From positions 1,860,001 through 1,924,000 of the forward strand of contig NZ_JAAMOZ010000001.1 in assembly GCF_011758645.1 (NCBI RefSeq): DNA of 64,000 nucleotides, in the 5' to 3' direction. The stretch is from Brooklawnia cerclae. Its GTDB lineage: Bacteria > Actinomycetota > Actinomycetes > Propionibacteriales > Propionibacteriaceae. Below, one piece after another: positions 32,901 through 45,810 of the stretch. The notes under the pieces were generated by a model, which worked only from the letters and a program-made list of their open reading frames with translations, was not told the DNA's origin and searched no databases. Every line of letters begins with the position of its first letter. Positions within the stretch are counted from its first letter, which is position 1. The translations under genes and the position numbers were made by a program.

Positions 32901-34043
32901 TCACATGTCACAGCGTCCGGCGGTCTGTCGCGACAGCACCTCCGCCACCTCATCGGGGGCGAGGGAGCGTCCACGAGCTTCAGCGGCAGCCCGCACAGCA
33001 GCCGTCGCGGCAGTCACATCGCGAACCGGGGATGTCCCGTCCGGTCCGCCGAGCAGACCCGCCACCGCCGCACGTCCCGCTTGGCGTCCGAACCGCCAGG
33101 AACGCGACGTGCTCACCAGGTCGGGGGCATAGGGCTCATAGGTGTGCGGGTCTGCGAAGAGCCCTGCCAGGTGCAGTCCGGACTCCACGGTGAAGATCTC
33201 CGCGCCGATCACGGGTGCCTGGGCGGGCACAGGACGACCCACCCATTCGGCCAGCGATCGGGACAGCTCGGCCGCCGCGGCGACGTCGTACGGGTCGCCG
33301 CCACGGATCGCCAGCCACGCGGCGACCTGTTCGGTGTGTGCGATCCCGGAGCGTTCGCCCAGTCCGAGCAGGCTGACGTCGGCCCAGTCGGCGCCGGCGG
33401 TCAGAGCTGCCACGGAACCCGCGGTGGCCATCCCGAAATCGTCGTGGATGTGCACGCCGATGTCGCCGGGAAAGTGCCGCCGGGTGGTCTCGACCAGACC
33501 GATGATCGTCGCAGGATCGGCGATGCCGACGGTGTCGGCCAGCCGCACCCGATCCGCACCCGCTTCGGCGGCCGCGTGGACGACGTCGACCAGGTACACC
33601 GGATCGGCCCGGGTCGCGTCCTCCAGCCCGATCGACACGCAACCGATGCCACCGGAGCGAGCCGCCTCCACCAGAACCGGCACCCGGGCGAGGGCCCAGG
33701 CCCGGTCTCGGTGCAGCCTGGCCCGCAGATGCAGGTCGGACACCGGCAACGCGAACGAGACGACATCTGGGCCCAACGCCGCAGCCGCCCGGATGTCGGG
33801 CTCCGTGGCACGGCACCAGACCGCGCGCCGTACGCCGGGGGCTCGCGCGGCCGCGACGGCCAGGAGATCCGGCAGCGCGTCCGCACCCATCGCCGTATCG
33901 GCCACGATGTGCCCGAGCTCGATCTCCGCGACGCCGATCCGGGCCAGCCCGGCGATCAGGTCGCCGCGCTGGCCCGGGGTGAGATACGGGACCGGGGCCT
34001 GGGCTCCCTCCCGCAGCGTGGTGTCGACCAGACGTCCCGGCAT
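32901..34043 (-). CDS. nifV: Homocitrate synthase NifV
   Basis: The 380-residue enzyme of the HMGL/isopropylmalate synthase family has VDTTLREGAQAP at the N-terminus, a TIM barrel with HIHDDFGMATAGS (metal-binding histidines) and LLGLGERSG. It should condense acetyl-CoA and 2-oxoglutarate to homocitrate, the organic ligand of FeMo-cofactor. The ATG at 34043 follows AAGGGTG and lies 4 nt after the nifJ stop; the in-frame upstream extension is a shadow of nifJ. It is the last gene of the nif operon. Isopropylmalate or citramalate synthase would be the alternatives, but context favours NifV. Confidence 0.9.
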   Translation of the reverse strand: MPGRLVDTTLREGAQAPVPYLTPGQRGDLIAGLARIGVAEIELGHIVADTAMGADALPDLLAVAAARAPGVRRAVWCRATEPDIRAAAALGPDVVSFALPVSDLHLRARLHRDRAWALARVPVLVEAARSGGIGCVSIGLEDATRADPVYLVDVVHAAAEAGADRVRLADTVGIADPATIIGLVETTRRHFPGDIGVHIHDDFGMATAGSVAALTAGADWADVSLLGLGERSGIAHTEQVAAWLAIRGGDPYDVAAAAELSRSLAEWVGRPVPAQAPVIGAEIFTVESGLHLAGLFADPHTYEPYAPDLVSTSRSWRFGRQAGRAAVAGLLGGPDGTSPVRDVTAATAAVRAAAEARGRSLAPDEVAEVLSRQTAGRCDM

Positions 34044-34047
34044 GGCA

Positions 34048-37000
34048 TCACCCTTGGGCCAGGCGCTCGTAGGTGGCCCAGCGAGCGTCCACGTCGGCCT
34101 GGGCCTGCGCGAACAGTTCCGCAGCGTGTTCGGCGTTCGACCTGGCCACTGAGGAGAACCTCGTCTCCTTGGCGTAGAACTCCGACACCGGCGTCGTGGG
34201 TGCCTTCGAATCCAGGCGGAAGGACGGTGCGGCGCCGGGCTCCGGCTCCGGATGGAAGCGGAACAACGGCCAGTGCCCCGAGGCGACAGCCGCACGCTGC
34301 CGGGCGGCGGCGTTGACCAGGTCGATGCCGTGCGAGATGCAGGACGCGTAGGCCAGCACCAGCGAGGGGCCCGGGTAGGCCGCGGCTTCGAGCATCGCCC
34401 GGACGGCCTGGGTCTCGTTGGCGTTGAGGGCGATCTGCGCGACGTAGACGTTCCCGTAGGCCTGCGCCATCATGCCGAGATCCTTCTTGCGGGCGGGCTT
34501 GCCGGCCGCCGCGAACTTCGCCGAGGCACCCCGCGGGGTCGCCTTGGATGCCTGGCCACCGGTGTTCGAGTACACCTCGGAGTCCAGCACCAGGACGTTG
34601 ATGTTCTGCCCGGACGCGAACAGATGGTCGAGCCCGCCGTAGCCGATGTCGTAGGCCCAGCCGTCGCCGCCCAGCACCCAGACCGCGGTGGGAACCAGTG
34701 CGTCCGCGACGGCGCGAAGCCTGCGGATCTGCTCGCCCTGCTTGCCCTCCTCGGGCAGGCCGTCGAGAGCCGTCTTCAGGGCGACCACACGTTCACGCTG
34801 CGCCACGATCGCGGCCTCGTCGGTGACCAGCACACCGGCGGTGAGCGCCTCGACGGTCTCGGCGGGCAGATCGATGCTGCCGGCGAGTTCACCCAGCAGG
34901 CCCCGGGCGATGGACTCACGCTGCGCGGTTCCCAGCGCCAGGCCCATGCCGAACTCGGCGTTGTCCTCGAACAACGAGTTGTTCCAGGCCGGACCACGGC
35001 CCTGCGCATCGGTCGTCCACGGCGTCGTCGGGAGGTTGCCGCCGTAGATGGACGAGCATCCCGTCGCGTTCGCCACGATCATCCGGTCGCCGAGCAGCTG
35101 CGACAGCAGCTTGACGTAGGGAGTCTCACCGCATCCACTGCACGCTCCGGAGAACTCGAACAGCGGCTGCAACAGCTGCGAACCCTTCACCGTCTCGGTG
35201 CGGACGGTCGTGCGATCGGTCTCGGGGAGCGACAGGTAGAAGTCGAAGTTGACGCGATCCTGGTCGCGCACGGCTTCGGCGGGCACCATGTCGAGAGCCT
35301 TGTGCTCGGGATCGGTCTTCGACCGGGCCGGGCACACCGTCACGCAGACGCCGCAGCCGGTGCAGTCGTCGGGGGCGACCTGGACGGTGAGCCTGGTGCC
35401 CGCCGGGAAGTCGCGTCCCATCGTCTGCTTCGACACGAATCCGTCGGGAGCGCCCTCCAGCAACCCCGGCTCGTACACCTTCATCCGCAGGGCGGCGTGC
35501 GGGCATGCGAGGGAGCATTTGCCGCAGTCGATGCACAGCTGGGCGTCCCAGTGCGGCAGGTCCGTGGCCAGGGCGCGCTTCTCGAGCTTCGCGGTGCCCG
35601 TCGGGAAGGTGCCACCGGCCGGCATCTCACCGACCGTCACCTGCTCGCCCTGACCGGCCATCAGCTTGCGTACCAGGCCGAGGACGCCGTCCTCCGGCGT
35701 CGCCAAGGTCGAGACCACCGGTGCCGGCTCCTCCGCGACATGGTCGGTCGGGATCGCCAGATGGTGCAGGGACGCCAGGGCATGGTCGATGGCGTCCAGG
35801 TTCGCCTGGACGACCTTCGGGCCGCGCTTGCTGTAGGTGTACTTCGCGAAGTCCTTGGCCAGACTGAGGGCCTCGTCCACGGGGAGCACCTTGGCGACGG
35901 CGAAGAAACAGGCCTGCATGACGGTGTTGATCCGCTTGCCCAGACCGACCTCCGCCGCCACGGACGCCGCGTCCACCGCATATACGTCGAGCTTCTTGTC
36001 GAGGATCTGCTGGCGCACGTCGGCAGGCAGGTGGTCCCAGGTCTCCTCCGCCGGGAAGGGACAGCTGATGAGCACGCGGGCACCCGGCTTGGCGATGTCG
36101 AGCAGGGGCAGCCGTTCCAGCAGGCCGAACTGCTGCACGGACACGAAGTCGGCTTCCTCGATCAGGTAGGGCGACTCGATCGGGTCGGGCCCGAACCTGA
36201 GATGGGACACCGTGGTCGAGCCCGACTTCTTGGAGTCGTAGACGAAGTAGCCCTGTACCCAGGAGTCGCTGTGCTCGCCGATCATCTTCACCGACGACTT
36301 GTTGGCGCCCACCGTGCCGTCACTGCCCAAGCCGTAGAAGACGGCCTGCACAGCGCGGGTCGGCAGCACGAAGCCCGGATCCGTGGTCAGGCTCAGGTTC
36401 GTGACGTCGTCGGTGATGCCCACCGTGAAGCGACGGTGCACCGGCTCGCCGGCGACCAGCTTGGACAACTCGTCGAAGACGGCGGCGGCGTCCCGGGGGA
36501 AGAACTCCTTGGAGCCCAGGCCGTAGCGTCCGCCGATGACCTCGGGCGGATCGGAGACCTTCTCGGCCAGGGCGGTGACGACGTCGAGGTGCAACGGCTC
36601 GGCGGGAGCCCCCGGCTCCTTGGCCCGATCGAGGACGGCGATCGCCTTGGTCGTGGCGGGGAGGGCCGCCACGAAGGCGTCCACCGGGAAGGGGCGGTAG
36701 AGGTGGACGGCCAGGACGCCGACCTTCTCCCCCGCCGCCACCAGGTGGTCGACGGTCTCGTTGAGCGTGCTGACACCCGACCCCATGGCCACCACGACAC
36801 GCTCGGCGTCGGGTGCCCCGTGGTATTCGACGAGCCCGTAGCGGCGTCCCGTCAACTCGGCGAACTGCTCCATGACCGTGGCGACGATCCCCGGGGTCGC
36901 CTCGTAGTAGGGGTTGGCCGCTTCGCGGCCCTGGAAGAAGACGTCGGGGTTCTGGGCGGTGCCGCGCAACACCGGCTTGGTGGGACGCATGCCCTGGTCA

Positions 37001-44938: not shown

Positions 44939-44982
44939 GATGGCTCCCTAAGACGATGAAGAAAGGTCGGACGAGGGGGCCG

Positions 44983-45810
44983 TCAGGCCGCGAGGACACC
45001 GTGTTCGAGCAGCAGACCCTCCAGGGTCTCAGTAGCCATCGGCTTGGGGATCACGAACATCTCGTTCTGATCGATCTTGGTGGCCAGCGCGCGGTACTCG
45101 TCCGCCTGGGTGCACGTGGCATCCCATTCGATGACCGTCTTCTTGTTGATCTCGGCGCGCTGCACGTCGTTGTTGCGCGGGACGAAGTGGATCATCTGCG
45201 TCCCGAGCTCCTTGGCGAAGGCGTCGATGAGCTCGTATTCGTTGTCGACGTTGCGGGAGTTGCAGATGATGCCGCCCAGGCGGACGACACCGGTCTGGGC
45301 GAACTTGCGAATGCCCTTGCAGATGTTGTTCGCGGCGTACATGGCCATCATCTCGCCCGAGGCGACGATGTAGATCTCCTGAGCCTTGCCCTCGCGCATC
45401 GGCATGGCGAAACCACCGCAGACGACGTCACCGAGGACGTCGTAGAAGACGTATTCGAGGTCTTCGGACGCGTCGTAGGCGCCGAGCCGTTCCAGCAGGT
45501 TGATGGAGGTGATGATGCCGCGGCCGGCACAACCGACGCCGGGCTCAGGGCCACCGGACTCCACGCACAGGGAGCCTGCGAAACCGGGGGAACGAACGTC
45601 CTCAAGCTCCACGTCGTCGCCTTCGGTGCGAAGAGTGTCGAGGACGGATTGCTGGGCCAGGCCGCCCAGCAGGAGGCGTGTGGAGTCGGCCTTGGGGTCA
45701 CAGCCGACGACCATGACCTTCTTGCCCATTTCAGTCAGGGCCGCAACCGTGTTCTGCGTGGTGGTCGACTTACCGATGCCACCCTTGCCGTAGATAGCAA
45801 CCTTCCGCAT
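44983..45810 (-). CDS. nifH: Nitrogenase iron protein (dinitrogenase reductase)
   Basis: The 275-residue Fe protein transfers electrons to NifDK with ATP hydrolysis. The P-loop GKGGIGKST is at 8-16; 4Fe-4S ligands are Cys93 (VGCAGRG) and Cys130 (DVVCGGF). The arginine that DraT ADP-ribosylates in some diazotrophs is present (Arg96). AAAGGTG lies 9 nt before the ATG at 45810; a GTG at 45822 would add only four residues. It leads the operon behind a 415-bp upstream region. NifI (PII-like) genes are absent between nifH and nifD. Confidence 0.98.

Follow-up and report, generated by a model that had tools for sequence, protein, structure and literature searches.

In one published account (PMC8399215), the nif genes of Propionibacterium are reported to group with those of Verrucomicrobium, and the hosts listed for iron-only nitrogenase (Anf) are limited to certain Proteobacteria, Methanosarcina and Firmicutes. 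For the nitrogenase-like MarBHDK system of Rhodospirillum rubrum (structure 9fmg), a published description proposes R428 together with H429 as a hallmark of MarD (PMC12552129). Here we analysed a stretch of 64,000 nucleotides from the actinobacterium Brooklawnia cerclae (the window; C1:1860001-1924000, where C1 is a 2.9-Mb contig), whose minus strand carries the nitrogen fixation operon nifHDKENB-nifJ-nifV at 32901-45810. We conclude, with a probability of roughly 0.8, that this operon encodes a standard molybdenum (Mo) nitrogenase and belongs to a wider set that also comprises an iron-only nitrogenase and a MarDK-like reductase. The operon itself adds one member to the small actinobacterial group already in print for Propionibacterium (PMC8399215). 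Less ordinary are two systems found elsewhere in the genome, the iron-only nitrogenase and a nitrogenase-like enzyme among sulfur genes.

All eight frames of the operon are intact (Table 1). The gaps between them, from nifH to nifV, are 44, 22, 2, 1, 11, 70 and 4 nt, and the gene coordinates thus confirm the arrangement on one strand with gaps of 1–70 nt that had been given in a preliminary description of this DNA. Six of the eight proteins (NifH, NifD, NifK, NifE, NifB and NifJ) pass their NCBIfam cut-offs. The alignments of NifD and NifK to the chains of the Clostridium pasteurianum MoFe protein (1mio/4wes) span most of both proteins; common to the two systems are the NifD insert, the short NifK and the ligands of the iron–molybdenum cofactor (FeMo-co) and the P-cluster. 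In NifH, the P-loop is present along with the two cysteines that bind the cluster. Membership of the Mo nitrogenases is indicated by these conserved features together with the presence of all of nifHDKENB. The alignments and the NifH motif check bear out the earlier statement that the cofactor and P-cluster ligands are present, and the family matches and gene order bear out the claim that this high-GC actinobacterium has the full nif core. The assignment of NifN is supported by its PF00148 match, its place in the operon and the 58–66% identity of the same-place genes in actinobacterial relatives; the putative homocitrate synthase is called NifV-like by its place in the operon alone, as in the relatives. 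NifJ carries its own 4Fe-4S domains. No genes for NifS, NifU, NifI or a ferredoxin were called inside the operon, in agreement with the preliminary description; its further statement that nifX is lacking does not hold, because NifB has a C-terminal NifX-like domain (PF02579).

Proteins were assigned with NCBIfam and Pfam cut-offs, the closest solved chains were taken from the PDB, and Rfam was applied at gathering scores, at which no family was found in the window. The genome comprises 3.79 Mb in six contigs and is rated 98.49% complete and 0.27% contaminated. A profile search of it with PF00142 identified three NifH-family genes with strong scores, besides two weak hits; PF00148 returned eight D/K-type genes, of which four are in the window, two belong to an anf operon and two form the Mar-like pair. 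To call the nif operon self-contained is incomplete, since the same genome also has an iron-only nitrogenase, the MarDK-like pair and a second nifH–nifB pair. An assembly artefact or contamination is unlikely, as all four clusters (nif, anf, marDK and nifH2–nifB2) share C1, their GC lies between 0.64 and 0.67, and the genome is rated as above. Comparisons covered 198 genomes of the family (Propionibacteriaceae as defined in the genome collection; by NCBI rank, Propionicimonas is in Nocardioidaceae), a phylum sample of 396, a nearest-relatives set of 37, 8 genomes of the same genus and 80 named loci. Beyond the phylum, AnfD and MarD were compared with plasmid records.

Table 1. Coordinates of the nitrogenase-related genes and of neighbouring features. 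Plain ranges are window positions; C1 ranges are contig positions, with stretch positions in brackets.
Feature	Coordinates	Strand	Evidence or remark
nifH (NifH1, 275 aa)	44983..45810	-	TIGR01287 443 bits, cut-off 394; P-loop, C94, C131
nifD (577 aa, bears insert of clostridial NifD)	43205..44938	-	TIGR01282 666 bits, cut-off 654; 4wes/1mio alignment
nifK (461 aa, short N-terminus)	41797..43182	-	TIGR01286 437 bits, cut-off 427; 1mio chain B alignment
nifE (452 aa)	40436..41794	-	TIGR01283 599 bits, cut-off 505
nifN (468 aa)	39028..40434	-	PF00148 387 bits; TIGR01285 305 bits, under cut-off 327
nifB (427 aa), radical S-adenosylmethionine (SAM) and C-terminal NifX-like domain	37733..39016	-	TIGR01290 386 bits, cut-off 344; PF04055, PF02579
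nifJ, pyruvate:ferredoxin (flavodoxin) oxidoreductase (1204 aa)	34048..37662	-	TIGR02176 1615 bits, cut-off 911
nifV-like, putative homocitrate synthase (380 aa)	32901..34043	-	PF00682, PF22617; best NCBIfam nifV (TIGR02660) 284 bits, cut-off 463
anf operon: anfHDGK, 203-aa and 314-aa proteins, AnfO	C1:2663092-2669643 (L016:8092-14643)		
MarD-like (495 aa), MarK-like (456 aa), NifX-like (136 aa)	C1:1856643-1859919 (L014:11643-14919)		Ends 81 nt before the window
NifB2 (484 aa) and NifH2 (274 aa)	C1:2014490-2016816 (L015:8490-10816)		
Cysteine synthase-like, first gene after the marD-marK-nifX-like cluster	20..1021	+	Best matches cysKM/cysK, under cut-offs
Cystine/amino-acid type ATP-binding cassette (ABC) transporter (permease, ATPase, binding protein)	1201..4066	+	Best NCBIfam matches, under equivalog cut-offs
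Sulfonate/nitrate-type ABC transporter (permease, ATPase, NMT1-like binding protein)	4112..7288	+	NCBIfam, under equivalog cut-offs
Inverted repeat GTTAC-N8-GAAAC-N2-GTTTC-N8-GTAAC, possible operator	46036..46073	.	About 225 nt upstream of nifH

The anf operon points to a second, iron-only nitrogenase. Three of its products, encoded together with AnfH, pass their NCBIfam cut-offs, which indicates membership of the iron-only nitrogenases: AnfD (530 aa; 1061 bits, cut-off 874), AnfG (117 aa; 156 bits, cut-off 125) and AnfK (463 aa; 912 bits, cut-off 854). AnfO scores 152 bits, over its Pfam cut-off. AnfH is closest to the Fe proteins 7qqa and 8oie, and AnfD matches 8boq with 993 bits and keeps the cluster ligands. 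With the enzymes 8boq and 8oie, those of Azotobacter vinelandii and Rhodobacter capsulatus, the operon shares the anfHDGK order, the delta subunit, the ligands, AnfO and an Anf3-like split-barrel protein. The last is the 203-aa product, whose best match is 2hti (1.1e-48) and which also matches 6rk0 (2.5e-9), a structure of Anf3. The operon differs from those systems in its actinobacterial host and in the 314-aa protein encoded within it, which had no match in Pfam, in NCBIfam (at the limits used) or in the PDB. An AlphaFold model of this protein (two rows) has a mean predicted local distance difference test (pLDDT) score of 32, and its counterpart in one family genome, G155, is 63% identical. 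AnfD scores over the cut-off in three of the 198 family genomes (this one, G155 and G170), in one of the phylum sample and in one of the nearest-relatives set, in both cases the genome studied here. The gene order of the whole operon recurs in G155, where a frame of AnfK contains one stop; the AnfD proteins of G155 and G170 are each 85% identical to that of Brooklawnia. Among the papers listed, judged by titles and the openings of abstracts, none was found to report an actinobacterial iron-only nitrogenase or Mar-type enzyme. With an anfHDGK set that looks intact, the Brooklawnia genome extends the range given for Anf in PMC8399215 to an actinobacterium.

The third D/K pair most resembles methylthio-alkane reductase. 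Its closest solved chains are R. rubrum MarD (468 bits, 47.7% identity) and MarK (446 bits), and the next other proteins score 124 and 91 bits. The MarD-like protein keeps the R428–H429 hallmark, three P-cluster cysteines (C66, C91 and C158), C270, W195 and H375; it has Ile at the positions of H194 and F199, and C73/Q74 are not kept. The R. rubrum locus differs from the one here, in which the order is D-K-NifX, genes for H and B do not adjoin, and the active site is altered. No MarH-type Fe protein was found in the genome, as all three strong NifH-family genes are far closer to Nif or Anf than to MarH (9fmg_D), and the MarDK-like enzyme may for this reason use a Nif-type Fe protein. Isethionate reductase was ruled out by residues: IsrD lacks two P-cluster cysteines and the FeMo-co Cys/His (PMC11423573), and the Brooklawnia protein keeps the P-cluster cysteines, the FeMo-co cysteine and a His ligand. 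A ROK/MarR-type regulator precedes the cluster (stretch L014:10346-14919), and sulfur-type genes follow it in the window (Table 1). Exact naming of the transporters was dropped, as their best matches are under equivalog cut-offs.

The pair is not a usual neighbour of nif, as no match from the other genomes of the family and the phylum sample exceeds 40% identity or 134 bits (self-score, 1120 bits); most of what does match is NifD or NifE. In plasmid records, the D proteins closest to the one here are those of Treponema saccharophilum (48%) and Candidatus Chlorohelix allophototropha (43%). Plasmid pTS2 of the former has the D-K-NifX order next to an ABC transporter, as here. The latter has a nearby ABC transporter and an O-acetylhomoserine sulfhydrylase; unlike here, nifB, nifX-like and nifH genes adjoin its D and K genes. 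The changes at 194 and 199 are partly shared by these proteins, which have Thr or Val at 194 and Phe at 199. Around its transporter, the Treponema plasmid holds two sets of MarDK-like and NifX-like genes (L249:2966-13205). In a small family genome, a D-type protein that has about 28% identity with the MarD-like protein follows a distant NifH homologue (46%; L192, G213:C24).

NifH2 is 82% identical to NifH1, and both NifH2 and NifB2 are of the nif type and in trees fall within the actinobacterial nif branch. Identification of NifH2 as MarH was ruled out by scores of 267 bits to 9fmg_D and 422 bits to 1cp2. Near the pair lie glutathione S-transferase (GST)-like and cysteine synthase-like genes (L015:8490-13288). 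NifH matches at E <=1e-40 occur in 13 of the 198 family genomes. Any extra matches among the other 12 are accounted for by AnfH (G155 and G170) or by a single NifH split between contigs; this apparent second NifH, in G204, is one gene cut by contig ends that overlap by 116 identical bases. G213 is a NifH-positive genome with only a distant, 46% identical homologue. Both the NifH2–NifB2 pair and MarDK are peculiar to the Brooklawnia genome within the sample. Their co-occurrence is a weak association, seen in one genome, with several of the relatives incomplete. The pair probably serves the MarDK-like enzyme or the iron-only nitrogenase.

Nitrogen fixation had been called uncommon in actinobacteria outside Frankia, and the counts agree. 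AnfD-model matches were obtained in 14 of the 198 family genomes, 12 with NifD or NifE at E <=1e-45 (one of them, G007, a truncated locus) and two weaker. In the phylum sample they were obtained in 25 of 396, 11 at E <1e-60 (own genome counted), two at 1.9e-22 and 2.9e-21, and twelve from 2.8e-8 to 5.3e-4; strong NifD or NifE is thus present in 12 of 198 and 11 of 396. A quick-search NifD tree of 81 rows, with support only from the approximate likelihood ratio test (SH-aLRT), places all Actinomycetota in a single branch (support 94, not starred), within a set that also holds Verrucomicrobiota, Planctomycetota, Holophagaceae, Kiritimatiellota and others. The single clostridial row, the NifD of C. 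pasteurianum, falls outside that set on a long branch of unsure placement. It is the best match of NifD among solved structures; the tree nonetheless speaks against the clostridial origin that the preliminary description had put up for testing, as far as one row on a long branch can.

Within the actinobacterial branch, Propionibacterium cyclohexanicum, Propionicimonas sp. and related genomes share the nifHDKENB(-V) order, and full-length matches are about 70–76% (NifD) and 72–76% (NifK) identical. The order H-D-K-E-N-B-(J)-V is common to the relatives. The same nifHDKENB-nifJ-nifV order as here is found in G187, of the same family, and in Actinotalea sp. M2MS4P-6 (NifD about 73–74% identical); no AnfD over the cut-off was found in G187. 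Five named actinobacterial loci with nifB and nifV (L022, L024, L025, L084 and L091) have no nifJ match between them. Among the 80 named loci, nifJ follows nifV in six, all verrucomicrobial (L037, L046, L049, L053, L082 and L087), and in G204 a NifJ-like gene ends about 1 kb before nifH. In G139, G159, G163, G170 and G187 a helix-turn-helix (HTH)–TOBE gene is divergent from nifH and, except in G187, mod-type genes follow; in Brooklawnia, unlike these, the HTH–TOBE gene and modABC lie 1.2 Mb from nif.

Cluster sulfur and electrons had been expected to come from outside the operon, and genes that could supply them were located. The sole NifU_N match in the genome sits in a SUF operon with SufS-, SufC-, SufD- and SufB-like neighbours (named by eye), and ferredoxin-type frames of 111 and 185 aa occur elsewhere. 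The HTH–TOBE gene and the modABC-like genes that follow it are at C1:650637-653731 (by eye and from TOBE matches). The earlier proposal of a pyruvate-driven nitrogenase is plausible in view of a nifJ within this operon and within those of G187 and Actinotalea; set against it is another frame, of 1251 aa with two Fer4 matches (C1:601975), which is perhaps a second pyruvate:ferredoxin oxidoreductase.

Together, these genes suggest how the system could operate. NifB, with its fused NifX-like domain, would make the precursor cluster, which NifEN would convert into finished FeMo-co with homocitrate from the NifV-like enzyme; pyruvate oxidised by NifJ would yield reduced ferredoxin for NifH, which would feed NifDK. 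From the genes present we infer nitrogenase activity, this NifJ–ferredoxin–NifH chain and the roles of NifV and NifN. Cluster sulfur would come from the SUF operon and molybdate through the distant modABC. Nif would be active when Mo is available, probably without oxygen, and Anf (anfHDGK, anfO and the Anf3-like flavin protein) could be the N2-fixing backup when Mo is short. The MarDK-like reductase, lying among sulfur genes, may free sulfur from small organic compounds, with NifH2–NifB2 as a candidate partner. As a whole, the proposal that NifDK, AnfDGK and the MarDK-like enzyme run on Nif/Anf-type Fe proteins and NifB, with NifH2–NifB2 having taken over from MarH and MarB as the partner dedicated to the MarDK-like enzyme, strikes us as rather unlikely. 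A MarDK-like enzyme without MarH would make it possible to test whether a C–S cleaving enzyme can be served naturally by a nitrogenase Fe protein, and whether N2 fixation draws on the same cluster supply as the use of organic sulfur.

The pair might instead be a nitrogenase-like enzyme with another substrate, either in group IV (for example, Nfa) or acting on sulfonate or cystine, and to this we give close to an even chance. The Ile residues in place of His194 and Phe199, the loss of Cys73/Gln74, an identity to MarD of only 48%, the cystine- and sulfonate-type transporters alongside and the missing MarH are what one would cite for it; a methylthio-alkane reductase is favoured by the retained Arg428–His429, Cys270, Trp195, His375 and P-cluster cysteines, and by MarD and MarK being by far the best solved relatives. 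Similarly, a chance slightly short of one half attaches to NifH2–NifB2 being a spare copy for the two nitrogenases, with the MarDK-like enzyme using NifH1 or AnfH or being non-functional. The nif type of both proteins, their position inside the actinobacterial nif branch and the distance of about 155 kb to marDK fit a spare copy, and two observations do not: the pair adjoins a cysteine synthase-like gene, and no second nif-type NifH occurs in the other 12 NifH-positive family genomes once AnfH and the split gene are set aside, although several of these are incomplete.

It is improbable that the nif genes form an island, either acquired or in decay, that goes unexpressed in a cell living on combined nitrogen. 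The trait is patchy (an AnfD-model match in two of the eight same-genus genomes, one of them truncated), and no regulator was found beside the operon, none having been looked for genome-wide; on the other side stand eight intact frames with conserved ligands and a GC of 0.673, near the 0.678 of the window. Recent import from another phylum is also unlikely, because NifD, NifH and NifB each fall within an actinobacterial branch. Some findings do weigh against a standard Mo nitrogenase in a wider set: NifN and NifV are under their NCBIfam cut-offs (Table 1), as is AnfO (121 bits, cut-off 129); a flavodoxin search of the genome gave one weak match (27.4 bits) and nothing more; and one same-genus genome keeps nifH and a truncated nifD alone at the locus, so nif can decay in this lineage. 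We nevertheless favour the reading of the operon as a Mo nitrogenase that stands beside Anf and the MarDK-like enzyme.

Further features were noted at related loci and upstream of nifH. In G007 (L180:9161-13076), the nifD that follows nifH is cut short by roughly 35 residues and continues instead into an unrelated frame, and nifKENB do not adjoin it; in G172 (L129, G172:C323; 2.3 kb read), the nifD part and the junction are 98% identical to G007. At L202 (G156:C50), two small genes of PII-like type (nifI1/nifI2 by eye) come after nifH, as does a nifD start in divergent orientation, and this nifH locus adjoins HTH–TOBE and ModA-like genes, unlike other family loci. Weak AnfD-model matches were seen at L144-L155, in twelve genomes of one family of the phylum (f21). 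The inverted repeat upstream of nifH (Table 1) matched its pattern once in the window and in none of 100 shuffles, the pattern having been written from the same sequence after inspection. It resembles actinobacterial GlnR sites, with a spacing that differs from their consensus. Words of the GTAAC type appear to recur upstream of nifH in relatives.

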